Part shown: positions 10,625 through 51,489 of the stretch, in pieces
Position numbering within the stretch: position 1 is the stretch's first letter
How the letters are laid out: each line of letters starts with the position of its first letter
Source: Natronococcus amylolyticus DSM 10524
GTDB lineage: Archaea > Halobacteriota > Halobacteria > Halobacteriales > Natrialbaceae
NCBI RefSeq assembly: GCF_000337675.1
Contig: NZ_AOIB01000036.1
Location: 181,393 to 234,956 of the forward strand
Reading direction: 5' to 3'
Length of the DNA stretch: 53,564 bases
The notes under the pieces: generated by a model
What the model saw: only the letters and a program-made list of their open reading frames with translations
The model's database searches: none
Told to the model about the DNA's origin: nothing
Made by a program: the position numbers and the translations under genes

Positions 10625-12072
10625 GCGCACTCGGTCCCTCGATTTACGGCTCGGAGCTCCCGGAGCGCGAGCTTCGCGAGCGGCTGATCGGCGGCGAGAT
10701 CCCCGTCGCCGTCTACGGACTCGGCAAGATGGGGCTCCCCCTCGCGGGCGTCTACGCCGAGACGACGGGCAACGTCACCGGGGTCGACGTCGACCCGACC
10801 GTCGTCGAGACGCTCGCCGACGGCGAGAGCCACGTCGTCGGCGAACCGGGACTCGACGACCTCGTCGCCGAGCAGGTCGAGCGGGGCCGGCTCACGGCGA
10901 CGACCGACGGCGCCGCGGCAGCTGCGGACGCCGGGATCCACGTGATCATCGTCCCGACACTGCTCGCCGAGGACGACTCGCCCGACCTGGCGACCGTCGA
11001 GTCGGTGCTCGAGGATATCGCGGCCGGGCTCGAGCCAGGTGACCTGGTCGTCGCCGAGTCGACGCTGCCGCCCGGCTCCTGCCGGGACGTCCTGCTTCCG
11101 CATCTGATCCAGGAGAGCGGCCTCGAGCGCGGCGAGCTCGGGCTCGCGTTCTGCCCCGAGCGGACGGCCTCGGGATCGGCCCTGCGGGACATCCGGGGAC
11201 GGTACCCGAAGGTCGTCGGCGGCGTCGACGCGGCGAGCACCCGCGCGGCCGAGCTGATCTACGGCGAACTCACGAGCAACGAGGTCCACGCGGTGTCCGA
11301 CGCGACGACCGCGGAGGCCGTGAAGGTGTTCGAGGGCGTCTACCGCGACGTCAACATCGCGCTCGCGAACGAGCTGGGTCGGCTCGCGGACGAGCTCGGC
11401 ATTTCAGTGCGGGAGGCGATCGACACCGCGAACGGGCTGTCGGTCTGTCAGCTCCACGAGCCCGGGCCCGGCGTCGGGGGCCACTGCATTCCGTACTATC
11501 CGCACTTCCTGCTCTCGCGGTTCGAGGAGCCGATGCCGGTGATGCGAACCGCCCGCGAGCTCAACGACGCGATGCCGTCGGTGATGGTCGATCGCCTCGC
11601 CGACCGGCTCGCGGCGACCGGCGCCGACACCGATCTCGCGGATGCCTCGGTGCTCGTCCTCGGGATCACCTACCGGGCTGGCGTCGAGGAGACCCGCGCC
11701 TCGCCCGCGCTGGGCGTCGTCGACGCGCTCCGCGAGATGGGGGCCGACGTCGCCGGTATCGATCCGCTGGTCGACCCCGCCGAGTACGGCGCCCGTCCGG
11801 TCGCCCTCGAGGACCTGCCCGACGAACCGTTCGACGGCGCGATCCTCGTCACGGCCCACGAAGAGTTCGAGGCAATTCCCTGGTCCGACCTCGAGCCGAT
11901 GGTCGTCGTCGACGGCCGGGACGCCCTCGACCTCTCGGGAACGGCCCACAGCCACTACACGTTCGCGGGCTCCCACGACGGGTCGGCCCCGTTCGGAGGC
12001 GGCGACGGCTCGGACGACGGTCGATCGGCACCGCTCGAGCCGCGACGAACGGACGGTGGGACCGATGTATAA
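10621..12072 (+). CDS. UDP-sugar 6-dehydrogenase (WbpA/UDP-GlcNAc dehydrogenase type)
   Basis: 483 residues. The NAD site YGLGKMGLPLAG is at about residues 32-43. The central domain contains EGVYRDVNIALANEL, and the catalytic cysteine lies in GPGVGGHCIPYYP (about Cys289). A C-terminal UDP-binding domain includes GITYRAGVEETRASPALGVV. The family performs two-step oxidation of a C6 hydroxyl to a carboxylate. With the three preceding genes it would supply a uronic acid, most simply UDP-GlcNAc to UDP-GlcNAcA. An acidic Gly/Asp-rich tail of about 40 residues follows the last domain. It overlaps the GT2 gene by 8 nt. Confidence 0.9.
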   Translation: MSALGPSIYGSELPERELRERLIGGEIPVAVYGLGKMGLPLAGVYAETTGNVTGVDVDPTVVETLADGESHVVGEPGLDDLVAEQVERGRLTATTDGAAAAADAGIHVIIVPTLLAEDDSPDLATVESVLEDIAAGLEPGDLVVAESTLPPGSCRDVLLPHLIQESGLERGELGLAFCPERTASGSALRDIRGRYPKVVGGVDAASTRAAELIYGELTSNEVHAVSDATTAEAVKVFEGVYRDVNIALANELGRLADELGISVREAIDTANGLSVCQLHEPGPGVGGHCIPYYPHFLLSRFEEPMPVMRTARELNDAMPSVMVDRLADRLAATGADTDLADASVLVLGITYRAGVEETRASPALGVVDALREMGADVAGIDPLVDPAEYGARPVALEDLPDEPFDGAILVTAHEEFEAIPWSDLEPMVVVDGRDALDLSGTAHSHYTFAGSHDGSAPFGGGDGSDDGRSAPLEPRRTDGGTDV

Positions 12073-13141
12073 GGGACGCTCGATCGGCGTCGTCGTCACC
12101 GCCTACGACGAGGCGGCGTTCGTCGGTCGTGTCATCGAGACGATCCCCGACTACGTCGATCGGATCTACGCCGTCGACGACGCCTCGCCGGACGACTCCT
12201 GGACCGTCATCCGACGGGTCGCCGAACGGATCAACGAGTCGACCGAGCCGGCGCGGGTGATCGCCGACGGCGGCGACAGCCGACGAGTGGTTCCGATCCG
12301 CCACGAGGAAAACAGGGGGTACGGCGGCGCGGTCAAGACCGGCTACGAGCGGGCCGCGGCCGACGGGATCGACGTCGTCGCCGTGATGAACGGCGACGCC
12401 CAGATGGACCCCGCGATCCTCGATCGGATCCTCGACCCCGTCGTCGACGGCGAGGCCGACTACGCGAAGGGAAATCGACTGTTGACTCCCGACGATCGCG
12501 CCTCGATGTCGACGTTCCGATTTATCGGCAACGCCACCCTCACCGGGCTCTCAAAGTTCGCCACCGGCTACTGGACGCTGTCGGACCCCCAGAACGGATA
12601 CACCGCCATCTCCAGGGAGGCCATCGAGACGCTCGAGTTCGAGTCGATCACCGACGAGTACGGCTTCCTCAATCACCTCCTGACCCACCTCAACGTCGCG
12701 GAGTTCCGCGTCGCGGACGTGCCGATGACGGCCGTCTACGGCGACGAGGAGTCGAGCATCGGCTACTCGTCGTTCGTCCAGTTCGTCTCTTTGCTGTTGC
12801 TGCGGAGCTTCCTGTGGCGACTCAAGACCCGCTACGTCGTCCGCAGTTTCCATCCCGCAGTCGTCTTCTACGGTGCCGGCGCGACCGGGCTGGCTGGTGG
12901 GCTCGCCGGACTGGTCGGCTCGCTCGCTCGAGCGGTCCGCGGCGCCGAGAGCTTCACGGGCGCGATCGCCTCCTTCGTCGCCGGACTGGTCGGCACGGTG
13001 GCCCTCGGAATCGCCATCTGGCTCGACCGCGAGGAGAACGCCCCCCTCGAGGTGAGCCCGTACGATCGATCAGACGAGGACGTCGCCGATGGAGGGTCGT
13101 CGGATCGGCTCGAGGAGGCGGCGCCCCGTTCGATCGAGTAG
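12065..13141 (+). CDS. Family 2 glycosyltransferase with C-terminal membrane helices
   Basis: 358 residues. The GT-A domain (about 5-235) has VVVTAYDEAAFVGRVIETIP, the nucleotide-binding VDDASPDDS, NRGYGGAVKTGY and the metal-binding GDAQMDP (DxQ variant of DXD). YWTLSDPQNGYTAISR closes the active site. Two or three helices follow, the clearest at about 270-300 and 305-325, then a charged tail. This resembles polyprenyl-phosphate glycosyltransferases (DPM1-like), which load a sugar on dolichol phosphate. As last gene of the operon it is the likely user of the sugar nucleotide made upstream (inference). Confidence 0.87.
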   Translation: MYKGRSIGVVVTAYDEAAFVGRVIETIPDYVDRIYAVDDASPDDSWTVIRRVAERINESTEPARVIADGGDSRRVVPIRHEENRGYGGAVKTGYERAAADGIDVVAVMNGDAQMDPAILDRILDPVVDGEADYAKGNRLLTPDDRASMSTFRFIGNATLTGLSKFATGYWTLSDPQNGYTAISREAIETLEFESITDEYGFLNHLLTHLNVAEFRVADVPMTAVYGDEESSIGYSSFVQFVSLLLLRSFLWRLKTRYVVRSFHPAVVFYGAGATGLAGGLAGLVGSLARAVRGAESFTGAIASFVAGLVGTVALGIAIWLDREENAPLEVSPYDRSDEDVADGGSSDRLEEAAPRSIE

Positions 13142-13463
13142 CGGGGGCCCGACGGGACGGCGCTCCGCCCTCTTAGTCTCCAATCCGAACCGAGCGGTCA
13201 CTGGCTCGAGGAGCCGATAAGTCACGTGGAGCGGTCAGTGACGTCGAAAATTCGGCTGTGAAAGACTGGGCGACGATTCGATGGGTTGACACGCCGAAGC
13301 TAAACTAACGTACTCCTCATATGTTCAATGAACGAGTCGGTCTGTCGGGCGATGACCAATACACCCAACTCTGACTTCTTCCCACGACTGAAGTCGTGAC
13401 CTTTCTCCTTGAACCACTGTAATCCGCTGAACCCATTCCAACCTGGCTTCGGAGAAACGACCC
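13142..13463. other. Intergenic region carrying an IS200/IS605-like end
   Basis: 322 nt between the GT2 operon and the convergent demethylase gene. Composition shifts to AT-richer DNA from about 13250. It contains the hairpin at 13383-13398, annotated separately. No intact ORF is seen. Confidence 0.45.
13383..13398 (+). mobile_element. Hairpin resembling an IS200/IS605-family end (remnant)
   Basis: CACGACTGAAGTCGTG forms a 6-7 bp stem with a tiny loop and is followed by ACCTTTCTCCTTGAACC. From memory, hairpins of this sequence followed by CTTTCTCC mark ends of haloarchaeal IS200/IS605 (TnpB-type) elements. No tnpA or tnpB frame is present nearby, so this would be a solo end or the scar of a lost element. 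It lies 65 nt from the stop of a gene with foreign-looking composition. Confidence 0.45.
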
Positions 13464-14828
13464 TCAATCGTCTATATCGTCCCTGGCGTGAATTTTGGCC
13501 TGTTCACGGGCGCTGGGGTTGACTGACTCTTTGAACGGAACTTTCGCCAGTGTCGCATACACGGGTTCGCCAGACACCTCAGCGTACTCGTCCGGGAGGT
13601 GGACTGCAAACTCCACATCGAGGCCCGCGTCATATATCGAGTCGTCGAGCGGAACGTCGGTCGCAGCCTGCAGTTTTGCCGCTGGAACGAATCCGAGGCC
13701 GATATTGGTCTCGAGGTCCGGATTCCACCCCGCCGACGTCAGGTAGCCACATTCATCGTCCGTCTCCGGGTCCGAGATGAGCCAGTAGTCGGAGGGCCAT
13801 TCCAAAATCGGGTCGCCTGCCATTTTCAGACCGACCAGTTTGTGAGTGAACGGAAACGCACCGTTTTCGATGGCCTCTTTCTGACGTTCCAGCTCGGCTT
13901 TGCCGACGTAGTCCGCGTCCTTGTCGTCGGGAACCTGATAGCCGAGGTTAACCTGGAACGGCGACGTCTCGTAGTCCATGTCCTGCCCCAACGACAGGAT
14001 TCCGGCAGCGATACGTCGACGACCGTTTACTGGCGTCGCGGCACCGCCGTGGTCTTTGACCGTTTCGAGTACTGGATTCCACACTGCCTCGGCGTTCTTC
14101 GTCGCTTCACGGACGTATATTTCGAACCCTGCCTCTCCGGAGAAGCCCGTCTGACTCACCAGCACCGGGACGTCGTTGATAGTCGCTTCCAGCAGTCCGT
14201 AGTACGGAACGTCTTCGACCGCATCACCGATGAGCGACTCCATCACGTCGGGCGATTTCGGCCCCTGAATCTGCATCGGCGAGACGTCGATCTCGTCGAT
14301 CTCGACCTCGAAGTCATTGCCGACTGTGACCCCTTGCAACCACTGCATCAGGTCGGAGTCAGCGATGGAGAACCAGAACTCGTCGTCGTCAGGCCGCAAC
14401 AGGACGAAGTCATTGAGGATACCGCCGTCCTGGTTGCAGCAGATGGCGTACTTGCCACGCATCGTCTCGATGTCGGTCGCGTCTCGCGTAATGACGAAGT
14501 TGACGAACGCCTCAGCATCGGGTCCCACGACACGAATCTGGCGCTCGACCGCGACGTCCCATAGCGCTACGTGGTTGACCAGCAACTCGTACTCGGCTTC
14601 CGCACCTCCGTCTTCGGGGTCGATGTACGCGCGGGGGTGGTACATGTGATTGTAAACCGTCGCCTGATGACACCCCTCCTCGACGGAAAGGTGCCAGAAC
14701 GGTGACTTCCGAACCCGGGTAGAGGTCACGAGGTCAACGTCTGCGTTACCTGTTTGACGAAGATTTCTGGGAACAGTACGATCCGATTGGTCGACATTGG
14801 GGTGGTTCGGGTGGTGGTTTCTCGACAT
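13464..14828 (-). CDS. GcvT-family demethylase, DMSP demethylase (DmdA)-like
   Basis: 454 residues of aminomethyltransferase (GcvT) fold, which transfers a methyl or methylene group to tetrahydrofolate. Motifs resemble DmdA: ATVYNHMYHP, ALWDVAVERQIRVVGPDA, KYAICCNQDGGILNDFVLLRP, ADSDLMQWLQG, the folate-site DVSPMQIQGPKS and TGFSGEAGFEIYV, and DYVGKAELE. The order and the VERQ and YNHM features favour DmdA (DMSP to methylmercaptopropionate) over glycine-cleavage T protein, and no gcvH/gcvP lie nearby. A sarcosine or dimethylglycine demethylase remains possible. Third positions are visibly AT-richer than in neighbours and the gene interrupts a glycan locus, suggesting transfer. The start at 14828 is uncertain; 14852 is an alternative. 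Confidence 0.75.
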   Translation of the reverse strand: MSRNHHPNHPNVDQSDRTVPRNLRQTGNADVDLVTSTRVRKSPFWHLSVEEGCHQATVYNHMYHPRAYIDPEDGGAEAEYELLVNHVALWDVAVERQIRVVGPDAEAFVNFVITRDATDIETMRGKYAICCNQDGGILNDFVLLRPDDDEFWFSIADSDLMQWLQGVTVGNDFEVEIDEIDVSPMQIQGPKSPDVMESLIGDAVEDVPYYGLLEATINDVPVLVSQTGFSGEAGFEIYVREATKNAEAVWNPVLETVKDHGGAATPVNGRRRIAAGILSLGQDMDYETSPFQVNLGYQVPDDKDADYVGKAELERQKEAIENGAFPFTHKLVGLKMAGDPILEWPSDYWLISDPETDDECGYLTSAGWNPDLETNIGLGFVPAAKLQAATDVPLDDSIYDAGLDVEFAVHLPDEYAEVSGEPVYATLAKVPFKESVNPSAREQAKIHARDDIDD

Positions 14829-15185
14829 TGGTAATCTATTTCGGTGATTCAACGGAATGGTTGCGCCCAGAGACGCCCGATGCGACTGGTATCGAACGGC
14901 GGGGTAACTCCCGTCGGGAGGTAGAATTTTGGTTCAGCGTCGATGCCTCGGTCACTGTCATGGTGTTTGTGTCATGCATGTGAACACTCGGCCACCGTCA
15001 TGGTGCATCGTACCATGGAAGTGAATGACGTCCTGTAACCGCATTGCCCTCTCTCTTAATCGAATAATGCATTTATATCGGGTCTAGAACATTTCACGCA
15101 TTCGTGATCACTTTCGCAGGTTCTCGGTGGAAGCAGTGAGGACGACGGTTCGAACCGTGCGAACTGGAACAGCGGTTCGACGAGG
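14829..15185. other. AT-richer intergenic region upstream of the demethylase
   Basis: 357 nt holding the presumed promoter region of the demethylase (transcribed leftward), the imperfect direct repeats at 14952-15025, and a short dyad TCACGCATTCGTGA near 15096. The latter may terminate the DUF354 gene or act as an operator. Confidence 0.45.
14952..15025. repeat. Two imperfect direct repeats (about 34 nt, 40-nt period)
   Basis: Copies start at 14952 and 14992. Shared blocks are GTCATGGTG (14957-14965 and 14997-15005), a middle CATG block, and GTGAA near the end. Within the second copy, CACC-GTCAT-GGTG is a dyad. They lie about 125-200 nt upstream of the demethylase start, where tandem operators could act. 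No protein is known to bind this sequence. Confidence 0.5.
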
Positions 15186-16286
15186 CTACAGCGACTGCGA
15201 TCGAGGCCGAATCGCCCGCTTGGCCGGCGGGCTGAGCCCCTCGAGCGAGCCCCGGGCGGTCGCGACGTCGACCAGCAGGTCGGTCAGGTTCACCAGTTCG
15301 CCGACGTAGGCCTGCCGACGTCGCTGCCAGCTGGCGTCGGCCTCGTCGTCGGCGAGGATCTCGAGCGAGCGCTCGCACAGCGGGCCGTAGGAGTCGAACT
15401 GCTCGGCGAGGCCGGCGCGCTCGAGTTCCTCGAACTCGCCGTACTCGTGCTCGTCGGTGCCCTGGTAGCGAAACGCGGGGGTACCGAGCAGGGCGGCCTC
15501 GGTGGCCATCGTCCCCGTGTCGGCGACCAGCAGCGAGGCCTCGGCCATCGCATCGTGGATCAGCGCGGGGTGGAGGTCGTACGGCCGAGCGGGGGTGTCC
15601 CGAAGCTCCATCCGGCCGCCCTCGTCGGAGACGAACACCGTCGCGTCCTCGCTCAGGCGGTCGATCAGATCCCGTCGCTGTTCGGGTGTAAACCCCTCGA
15701 GGTCGGTGTCGTGGAGCGCGTCGAGTGCGTTGAACCGGAGGAGGACGTAGGGCTCGTCGTCGGCGACGCCGAGATACTCGCGAATCCGCGCGTCGGGTTC
15801 GAAGACGTCGGGGTGGAGATAGGCGCACTCCTTGAACCCCTCGAACGTGTAGTGGTCGTCGCCCAGATCCCGGCGCGTGACCGCCGGCGAGAGGATGCAG
15901 TCGGCGAACGGTCGGGAGACGGTGTAGTTGAAGTCGCCCGGCTCGTCGTCGAGGACGAGCACCGTCGGCGTTTGCGTGACTGTCCCCGCAAGGGCCGCGT
16001 AGGGTCCGCGGCCGAAGACGACGTCGGGGCGAAAGCGCAGCGACTCGCGGACGATCGTTCCGAGCTGACCGCCCAGCTCGCGGGCGAACCGCAGTCGGGA
16101 GTAGGCGTCGGTGCCGTGGCCGCCGTACACCCGGTACGGCATCCCGAAAAAGTCGAGCAGGTCGGTCGTACAGGCGTACTCGCGGGTCAACACGAGAACG
16201 TTGTGGCCGGCTCGCTCGAGCCTGTCGACGGCGTGGCGGTACAGGTGGACGTGGGCGGGCGTATTCGCGAAGACCAGAATCCGCAT
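15186..16286 (-). CDS. DUF354 protein (GT-B-like)
   Basis: 366 residues beginning MRILVFANTPAHVHLYRHAVDRL, the DUF354 N-terminal strand-loop. The C-terminal Rossmann-like half contains SDEGGRMELRD, then LVADTGTMATEAALLGTPAFRY, which resembles the nucleotide-sugar site of GT-B enzymes such as UDP-GlcNAc 2-epimerase. DUF354 proteins occur in archaeal polysaccharide loci and are suspected glycosyltransferases or epimerases. The start at 16286 is set by the conserved N-terminus and by ATTACAAAG, a one-mismatch copy of the shared element, 33 nt upstream. It diverges from the GT4 gene. Confidence 0.85.
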   Translation of the reverse strand: MRILVFANTPAHVHLYRHAVDRLERAGHNVLVLTREYACTTDLLDFFGMPYRVYGGHGTDAYSRLRFARELGGQLGTIVRESLRFRPDVVFGRGPYAALAGTVTQTPTVLVLDDEPGDFNYTVSRPFADCILSPAVTRRDLGDDHYTFEGFKECAYLHPDVFEPDARIREYLGVADDEPYVLLRFNALDALHDTDLEGFTPEQRRDLIDRLSEDATVFVSDEGGRMELRDTPARPYDLHPALIHDAMAEASLLVADTGTMATEAALLGTPAFRYQGTDEHEYGEFEELERAGLAEQFDSYGPLCERSLEILADDEADASWQRRRQAYVGELVNLTDLLVDVATARGSLEGLSPPAKRAIRPRSQSL

Positions 16287-16312
16287 CGCCTCCCCGTACC
16301 CGTCGCCGACCC

Positions 16313-16320
16313 TTTGTAAT
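16313..16320 (-). promoter_or_regulatory. Variant element ATTACAAA before the DUF354 gene
   Basis: The minus strand reads ATTACAAAGG, one mismatch from ATAACAAAG. The core begins 33 nt before the ATG at 16286, the same spacing as the exact copies. Confidence 0.5.
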
Positions 16321-16483
16321 CGGCGGGCTACCCACGCTCGGCCGGCCGTTCGCCGACTCGAGCCGGACACGCGCCTCCAGATCCGAGCGACGGACGGTCT
16401 CCGATCGCGTGCTCGAGCGTCGAGCCCGTTCCGTCGGGCGTATGCTCCCCGTAACAGCCGCCGCCGACCGAGTTTCTCCGTCC

Positions 16484-16491
16484 ATAACAAA
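16484..16491 (+). promoter_or_regulatory. ATAACAAA element before the GT4 gene
   Basis: ATAACAAACC. The TAACAAA core starts 33 nt before the ATG at 16518, the position of a TATA box in a leaderless promoter. Confidence 0.6.
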
Positions 16492-50793: not shown

Positions 50794-51489
50794 TCAGGCG
50801 AACGCCGACCCACAGAGCTGTGCGATCGCTCGCCGGAGCCGCTGAGAGATCGCCGACTTCGAGACCTCGAGGCGATCGGCGAGTTCGTCCTGGGAGATCC
50901 GTCGGGGGACGTCGAAGTACCCCTCCTCGTAGGCGACCGTCAGCAGTTCCCGCTGTTTCTCCGTGAGCGAAACCGGCCCACCGCCCTCGGTGTCGGCCGG
51001 TCGGAGGTGGTCGACGGTCACCGAGACGTCCAGTTCCCGACACCGGTCGTTGAACGCGACGAGGGCGTTCCGGTCGGGAAAGCGTAGCCGGAACTGCCAT
51101 CCCTCCCGACAGCTCGAGCAGCCGCGGAGCCGTCCGCCGACGGCGGCGGTCGCCTCGACGAGGGTGATCGCTCGCTCGGTAAGCTCGAGTCGATAGCTCC
51201 GACACTCGGGAGCGCGATCCACGAGGACGGGATCGGCAACGGTCGGATCGGTCCCGAGAGCGGTCTCGAACGCTCCGAACTCGGTGCCCAACGCGGTGAC
51301 GAACAGGAGGGTTCGGTCGCCGCCCGCGTCGGTCCAGTACTCGGGCTCGAGGGAGATCTCGGGTGCGCGTCGCAGCGTCGGTCGCAACACCAGCTCCGGG
51401 TGCGAGAGGGTGAGCTGAGCCAGCACGCCACCGTTGGCCTGCGTTCGAACGGCAACGCCGTCGGGATCCGCAGCGAGGTCGAGGCTCAT
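50794..51489 (-). CDS. Bacterio-opsin-activator-type HTH regulator
   Basis: 231 residues. An N-terminal ligand-domain-like region (about 1-165, including a central CSSCREGWQFRLRF stretch) precedes a C-terminal HTH_10 domain (about 175-228): LTEKQRELLTVAYEEGYFDVPRRISQDELADRLEVSKSAISQRLRRA. HTH_10 is the DNA-binding domain of haloarchaeal Bat-like regulators. The CxxC in the middle could bind a metal. It is soluble. A second Bat-type regulator lies 239 nt away, transcribed in the same direction. Targets unknown. Confidence 0.85.
   Translation of the reverse strand: MSLDLAADPDGVAVRTQANGGVLAQLTLSHPELVLRPTLRRAPEISLEPEYWTDAGGDRTLLFVTALGTEFGAFETALGTDPTVADPVLVDRAPECRSYRLELTERAITLVEATAAVGGRLRGCSSCREGWQFRLRFPDRNALVAFNDRCRELDVSVTVDHLRPADTEGGGPVSLTEKQRELLTVAYEEGYFDVPRRISQDELADRLEVSKSAISQRLRRAIAQLCGSAFA

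Follow-up and report, generated by a model that had tools for sequence, protein, structure and literature searches.

A DmdA-like gene inserted in a glycan locus of Natronococcus amylolyticus and the haloarchaeal cassette to which it belongs

The DMSP demethylase DmdA of Pelagibacter ubique (PDB 3tfh; NCBIfam model PRK12486), summarised in the accessible part of PMC5395565, is a stand-alone, folate-linked protein with the GcvT fold. A Trp at position 171 has been described as key to its interaction with DMSP, and one clade of homologues not counted as DmdA carries Phe there; this ‘non-DmdA’ group is treated as homologues with a DMGDH-like model in the part of the paper available to us, which does not describe the two clades, the cassette or the gene neighbourhoods reported below (Hernandez et al., 2020; PMC7487153). 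Two GcvT-like aminomethyltransferases, SAR11_1265 and SAR11_1303, have metF or genes for betaine transport close by, and roles with betaine or DMSP are proposed for them in the accessible text of PMC3160333. The same folate-binding fold also forms the C-terminal domains of dimethylglycine oxidase/dehydrogenase and of TMAO demethylase. Brines are rich in glycine betaine and related osmolytes. In marine bacteria a cobalamin-dependent betaine demethylase has been reported (PMC12478193, seen as an excerpt), while for haloarchaea the available portion of PMC3102087 lists BCCT and dimethylglycine-oxidase genes, names no betaine demethylase and raises betaine use only as a possibility. The excerpt of PMC13280387 mentions dmdA for bacteria only, and a search of the open-licence PMC literature found no description of the cassette that we call clade A.

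We analysed a 53,564-nt stretch of the N. amylolyticus genome (the window), in which an intact gene for a DmdA-like protein lies between two convergent glycan genes (Table 1). The open reading frame is complete, with an ATG start. Its product resembles DmdA in being a stand-alone GcvT-fold protein with the folate-site Glu/Tyr and NDP/ADSD-type motifs, and its resident (clade-B) relatives likewise have MetF as a neighbour. It differs from DmdA in belonging to a separate clade, scoring below the DmdA cut-off, carrying Phe for the contact Trp, lacking DmdB- and DmdD-like neighbours and being longer (454 rather than 369 residues). SAR11_1265 and SAR11_1303 are likewise stand-alone, GcvT-like and close to metF or betaine transport genes (PMC3160333, in part), although their host is bacterial and the likeness to our two clades is one of description. 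In the dimethylglycine and TMAO enzymes the folate domain is fused to a catalytic part, whereas the clade-A protein stands alone.

Table 1. Features of the inserted segment and its flanks (positions are those of the window; aa, amino acids).
Feature	Position	Strand	Basis
Flanking glycosyltransferase (GT2), resident	11642–13141	+	Pfam; present in congeners without the insert
Inserted segment, ~1.84 kb, ends uncertain by ~5–30 nt	13295–15137		Congener flanks, cassette homology
Solo ~52-nt IS200/IS605 end palindrome, PATE-like	13371–13427		Genome copies, fold
Clade-A DmdA-like gene, GcvT fold, predicted THF-dependent methyltransferase, 454 aa, intact	13464–14828	-	Pfam, PRK12486, AF2, pN/pS
Broken leader ORF, still open, 47 aa, ends 7 nt before the gene	14836–14979	-	Alignment
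Remnant of ancestral leader frame, no start, C-terminus lost	14852–14971	-	Leader HMM, E 1.9e-17
Repeat pair, 14947–14965 and 14987–15005	14947–15005	-	Sequence, clade-A alignment
TATA-box-like promoter element CGATATAAATG, conserved in clade A	15070–15080	-	20 aligned upstream regions
Flanking DUF354 protein, resident	15186–16490	-	Pfam; in 9 of 9 genus genomes

The sequence-only reading had called the product DmdA-like, and profile scores, structure and phylogeny agree with it. The protein carries the Pfam domains GCV_T and GCV_T_C. Its top NCBIfam model is the DMSP demethylase PRK12486, at 245.9 bits (246.1 in the genome search) against a cut-off of 410; the GcvT models also remain under their cut-offs (PRK00389, 151.9 of 300; TIGR00528, 133.5 of 235.85). 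By sequence the best solved relative is the Pelagibacter DmdA, 3tfh, which is also the first match of an AF2 model built from 33 sequences (mean pLDDT 77, pTM 0.81, residues 272–297 below 50), with a Foldseek E-value of 3.4e-32 and, in VIA-align, Z 32.1 and an rmsd of 3.5 for 359 residues. GcvT chains matched the model nearly as well (Z 30–31), so that the fold alone cannot decide between DmdA and GcvT.

A contig scan gave 94 relatives; the best 80 were retained, 76 of them from haloarchaea and 4 from bacteria. The haloarchaeal members of these best 80 of 94 fall into two groups, A with 20 loci at 80–97% identity and B with 56 loci at 66–74%. In a 50-row tree, clade A, including the gene studied here, was recovered as a single clade of 22 rows (100/100), and A, B and the four bacterial proteins together formed a clade (100/100) apart from the references on the DmdA side (n = 6: two annotated DmdAs, one Phaeobacter protein and three from one alphaproteobacterial genome) and the GcvT side (n = 2). 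The grouping with GcvT that would have spoken against a DmdA-like identity was thus not seen in this tree, which omitted four long outgroup rows (L152, L154, L161 and L164) and all but 16 clade-B rows and in which the tool still flagged long outgroup branches. Clade B was not a single clade there because one B row, L065, was placed apart from the others; a quick 69-row mixture-model tree had very long branches and gave B as one side poor support (28). On scores and phylogeny, the product is best classed as DmdA-like rather than GcvT, in a separate family that is sister to DmdA.

We located the equivalent of W171 by its distance from the Glu and Tyr of the folate site. The ‘non-DmdA’ homologues described in the available part of Hernandez et al. 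(2020; PMC7487153) and our family have Phe at this same position. Phe is found there in 82 of 82 family members. We take the accessions of the published Phe group to be haloarchaeal. Among our references, four DmdA-like proteins have Trp, while two annotated roseobacter DmdAs and the GcvT-side rows have Tyr; since Trp is therefore not universal among annotated DmdAs, Phe weakens a role with DMSP and does not exclude it. The folate-site motif G-x-E-x-Y is present in all 82 members, and an S-x-A/S-D-S motif is common to the family and DmdA. Seven positions are fixed differently in A and B (130, 141, 156, 159, 200, 280 and 366), the remaining invariant motifs being the same in both. At 141, 280 and 366 clade B agrees with all four bacterial relatives and A deviates, while at 159 it is A that matches the bacterial relatives and DmdA. 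Site 141 adjoins a conserved Asp140, which presumably aligns with the catalytic Asp of GcvT, and site 280 lies in the GQDM region. The three A-specific sites raise the possibility that clade A uses another substrate, and they may serve as a lead for such a change.

The gene is foreign in composition and inserted relative to congeners, a stronger case for foreign origin than the sequence-only reading could make. The AT-richer third positions noticed in the sequence-only reading are real: GC3 is 0.721, or z = -6.3 against 24 family-assigned genes of the same genome (mean 0.879, sd 0.025, lowest 0.806). A 70%-identical paralogue in the same genome has a GC3 of 0.910. In the Natronococcus copies, the GC content of the clade-A gene minus that of its flanks is -0.086 to -0.103. 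We rejected foreign composition as a trait of clade A as a whole, in which the difference averages -0.027 (12 of 19 negative) against -0.008 in B (Mann-Whitney p 0.076); the strong contrast of the Natronococcus copies is not general. The enzyme gene is intact and under purifying selection, with a pN/pS of 0.17–0.18 against three congeneric copies.

Of the whole window, only 13300–15107 (N. jeotgali, L008) or 13419–15147 (L007 and L009) is shared with other clade-A loci, and among the matches listed, L007 to L025 and L038 match in the cassette only. Homology to the flanks of the nearest congener (G004) ends at 13294 and restarts at 15138, these flanks being on different contigs. All five congeners in which the spacer is assembled (G001, G003, G006, G007 and G008) lack the cassette there: from the glycosyltransferase to the DUF354 gene, on one contig, the spacer measures ~0.6–2.9 kb and has no cassette match. 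We took the surroundings of the DUF354 gene from eight congeners, two of which (G002 and G005) are seen from the DUF354 side only. The spacer is different in each congener, which marks it as a variable site between convergent genes. In G002, G005 and G006 the clade-A copies lie on contigs other than that of the DUF354 gene. A transferred gene with its own control region, as had been proposed, is supported by these cassette-free spacers, by the lack of normal synteny in relatives and by the recurrence of promoter, leader ORF and gene as one unit in unrelated surroundings. Recent horizontal transfer is the probable route of arrival.

The clade-A cassette consists of a TATA box, a leader ORF of ~49 codons, the demethylase-like gene and often a BAT/HTH_10 regulator. 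The columns of the TATA element are invariant or nearly so among 20 aligned clade-A upstream regions. In every one of the 21 other clade-A loci the leader is intact and stops 6 to 37 nt short of the gene; the annotation of Haloarcula sp. GH36 lists it as a hypothetical protein. In N. amylolyticus most of it is out of the ancestral frame, with 2 nt and 8 nt missing relative to L007–L009; this frame break may be an assembly error. The leader as a specific partner of the enzyme was a candidate that we set aside. Its constraint is weak (mean pN 0.32 against pS 0.43; pN is the lower value in 176 of 210 pairs), and B loci contain small ORFs of weak similarity at other places, so that it may belong to a wider haloarchaeal family of small proteins; the L011 leader and two similar ORFs that we tried gave no Pfam match. 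The upstream repeat pair is present as described, its copies 40 nt apart and 89% alike, and fares less well as a control element. It is a partial duplication of ~40 nt at the start of the leader ORF, which all four Natronococcus copies carry and L017 shares in part, and since most clade-A copies lack it we rejected it as a conserved operator. An Rfam search of the window returned no family.

The two clades differ sharply in their surroundings. In flanks of up to 6 kb around the 56 B loci, again from the best 80 of 94 relatives, we found genes for MetF (45 loci), HTH_10 (30), BCCT (18), FolD (16), IlvA (16), GlyA (14), FTHFS (9) and DMGDH-like proteins (6), and seven loci had no C1 gene within reach. 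The 20 A loci had HTH_10 in 12 and none of MetF, BCCT, IlvA, FolD, GlyA, FTHFS or DMGDH-like genes in the same span; contig ends shortened several of the loci counted. With a plasmid locus included, HTH_10 stands beside 13 of 21 A genes and an MFS gene beside three, both assignments confirmed by Pfam, and the A loci compared share no conserved A-specific metabolic neighbour. In N. amylolyticus itself MetF comes immediately after the B copy; FolD and two BCCT genes, one of them divergent, are close by, and FTHFS and a dimethylglycine-oxidase-like gene follow at ~10–15 kb. A second region, on contig C36, holds two dimethylglycine-oxidase-like genes together with IlvA, BCCT, GlyA and Rieske-type genes; close to the dimethylglycine-oxidase-like genes of this genome are two that encode Rieske-type oxygenases. 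On pNG700 of Haloarcula marismortui, a B gene stands with dihydrofolate reductase, MetF, two FAD oxidoreductases, a ring-hydroxylating oxygenase and ilvA. Such neighbour sets would fit a route from betaine through dimethylglycine, sarcosine, glycine and serine to pyruvate, with the methyl groups oxidised on folate.

Among 292 genomes of the class, 68 carry the family: 17 have A (one by a partial match), 51 have B only and none has A only. By this co-occurrence A depends on B, which is present in all 17 A-bearing genomes (Fisher p 3e-12, a value that ignores relatedness and overstates independence, as many A genomes come from one family). Within the genus, A is found in four and B in seven of nine genomes. 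We compared pairwise similarities among 13 genomes carrying both genes. When the two hosts belonged to different families, A was the more similar gene in 43 of 51 pairs (a host whose family is not known being counted as different); when they shared a family, it was so in only 12 of 27. Between N. amylolyticus and N. jeotgali A is 97% and B 80% alike, the low B value arising because N. jeotgali carries another B lineage. Clade B is the resident gene and clade A a stand-alone cassette found in unrelated places.

We favour, with reasonable though not strong confidence, a reading in which the protein is a GcvT-fold methyltransferase acting on a betaine-type onium compound and on THF, with the clade-A cassette as an accessory that feeds the C1 pathway of clade B. 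The methyl donor would be a small osmolyte of the betaine (onium) type and the acceptor tetrahydrofolate, in a redox-neutral step that needs neither flavin nor corrinoid; the resulting 5-methyl-THF would be oxidised by the MetF/FolD/FTHFS set beside the resident clade-B paralogue at another place in the genome. Clade A would be a second, accessory copy that spreads among haloarchaea as a small cassette and, in N. amylolyticus, landed in the variable spacer between the two glycan genes. A metabolic add-on of this kind can spread alone once its host has a pathway that consumes its product. The neighbour genes, with MetF next to B in 45 of 56 loci (best 80 of 94 relatives), point to a betaine-type substrate and to methyl transfer to THF; a betaine-type onium is probably the substrate class, and THF its likely acceptor. 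The proposals made for similar aminomethyltransferases, with betaine or DMSP, offer a precedent (PMC3160333, in its accessible part). A folate-linked demethylase family beside MetF, FolD, FTHFS and BCCT is a directly testable candidate for betaine use. Against this reading, the Rieske-type genes, two here and one on pNG700, could carry out betaine demethylation instead, and the portion of PMC3102087 available states that Haloquadratum walsbyi grew no better with betaine. It also has to accommodate the seven B loci of 56 without a C1 gene, the broken leader of N. amylolyticus, the seven fixed A/B sites, three of them unlike B and the bacterial relatives, and the same-family pairs, of which only 12 of 27 have A more alike than B.

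Those fixed sites are also what recommends a neofunctionalised clade A, acting on a compound other than that of B under its own BAT/HTH_10 regulator and leaving the usual substrate to B. We think this possible, if somewhat against the balance of the evidence: B and the four bacterial relatives agree at three of the seven sites, the leader and regulator are distinct and A is found only together with B, but the other invariant motifs are identical in A and B and no A-specific metabolic neighbour is conserved. A still more specific proposal, which we offer as speculative, is that clade B may be a cobalamin-free and oxygen-free GcvT-fold glycine-betaine:THF methyltransferase, the missing first step of betaine breakdown in haloarchaea, and that A may be a mobile, neofunctionalised offshoot that opens this C1 pathway to another methylated osmolyte, kept only with B.

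DMSP as the substrate, implied in the sequence-only reading, found no support, and a true DMSP demethylase in a haloarchaeon seems to us unlikely. DmdA is indeed the nearest named model and the nearest solved structure, with the folate Glu/Tyr and S-x-A/S-D-S motifs in common; yet the protein reaches only 246 of the 410 bits required and lies outside the DmdA clade, Phe replaces Trp in 82 of 82 members (though the two annotated roseobacter DmdAs have Tyr), and neither an acyl-CoA synthetase (DmdB-like) nor an enoyl-CoA hydratase (DmdD-like) gene was found in the flanks (up to 6 kb) of any of the 20 A and 56 B loci, 76 in all. The cassette argues against labelling haloarchaeal DmdA-like genes as DMSP demethylases. 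We give similarly little weight to a decaying passenger, without function in this strain. The frame-broken leader would suit it, as would the state of the HTH_10 regulator, which is missing from this strain's cassette and of which N. jeotgali keeps a C-terminal remnant, but the enzyme ORF is intact with a pN/pS of ~0.17 against three congeneric copies, and the TATA element is kept. That the gene is the ordinary, vertically inherited GcvT of the glycine cleavage system is scarcely credible. It has the GcvT fold, but scores 151.9 bits against a cut-off of 300 and shows no synteny, and the genome's GcvT-like gene is another one, on contig C31 and in another clade of the 50-row tree; score, tree and synteny together led us to rule it out.

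The hairpin noted downstream, like the repeat pair upstream, is where the sequence-only reading placed it, 65 nt beyond the gene stop, and has proved a poor sign of gene mobility. The hairpin, CCCACGACTGAAGTCGTG at 13381–13398, is an exact match (shuffles give 0.19 at three or fewer mismatches) and folds. The surrounding ~52-nt palindrome occurs at nine places in the N. amylolyticus genome, weak matches included, and in eight of nine genus genomes; copies lie upstream of a tnpA-like/tnpB pair on contig C14 (the tnpA-like call being read from the sequence) and upstream of tnpB on C13. It resembles PATEs, defined as short, ORF-less, dispersed elements with IS605-type palindromic ends and including terminal-only 52-bp forms (PMC3119063, in the part available): it is the same ~52-nt palindromic relic, ORF-less and dispersed, differing in that here it merely adjoins the cassette. 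No tnpA or tnpB stands beside this copy, and none of the 20 TnpB zinc-ribbon hits in the genome falls within the window. A palindrome so widespread and without an adjoining transposase is no proof of mobility, and we did not accept it as proof of an IS-borne cassette.

That an IS200/IS605 (PATE) element moved the cassette is accordingly doubtful, if slightly less so than a DMSP demethylase: the right end of the insert has no such palindrome, the copy present adjoins no transposase, the genus has the element in most of its genomes and many clade-A genomes lack it, but among 11 clade-A copies compared downstream only those of N. amylolyticus and N. jeotgali have it. In N. jeotgali the element sits between the demethylase-like gene and the C-terminal remnant of the HTH_10 regulator (residues 147–221), and the regulator is absent from the N. 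amylolyticus insert. The left junction of the insert (13294–13300) falls within a few nucleotides of the border between IS relic and HTH_10 remnant in N. jeotgali, an arrangement that points to an IS event as the initial cause of the regulator's truncation in the N. amylolyticus/N. jeotgali lineage.

The spacer in the window that runs from a glycosyltransferase gene to a DUF354 gene (13142-15185) has filler that differs from one Natronococcus congener to the next, ranging from about 0.6 to 2.9 kb; these differences suggest a possible hot spot for insertions. The window also encodes, at 50794-51489 (-) and thus not close to the clade-A gene (13464-14828), a regulator of the BAT/HTH_10 type that shares about 31% identity with the one associated with clade B.

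Extra copies of cassette parts were seen at two clade-A loci. In Halomicroarcula rubra, a second cassette, truncated and inverted and comprising the leader, the gene start and the HTH_10 gene, adjoins the full copy (L023:9025-10180, -). In Halobellus salinus the leader ORF is duplicated, with the second copy upstream of the first (L022:5529-5717, +). On a Haloarcula sp. GH36 plasmid, the cassette lies immediately downstream of a sulfur-transfer set encoding TusA, DsrE/F/H-like, YeeE/YedE and rhodanese-MBL proteins (L169:4195-7366); when neighbours were compared across the clade-A loci, these genes were not a conserved neighbour at any other of them.

Some loci of clade B, the resident haloarchaeal paralogue, also contain small ORFs with weak likeness to the clade-A leader. 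The two that were searched against Pfam matched no entry. These ORFs possibly belong to a broader haloarchaeal small-protein family.

Leader-like small ORFs in clade-B loci (positions within each locus)
Locus	Position	Strand	Pattern
L070	9519-9752	-	YLP...R-ER-LF-like
L056	5431-5688	-	YLP...R-ER-LF-like
L042	5439-5696	-	YLP...R-ER-LF-like
L028	3120-3326	+	YLP...R-ER-LF-like
L036	4567-4818	-	YLP...R-ER-LF-like

Haladaptatus halobius carries two clade-B copies (L035 and L040) on a single replicon, chromosome 2.
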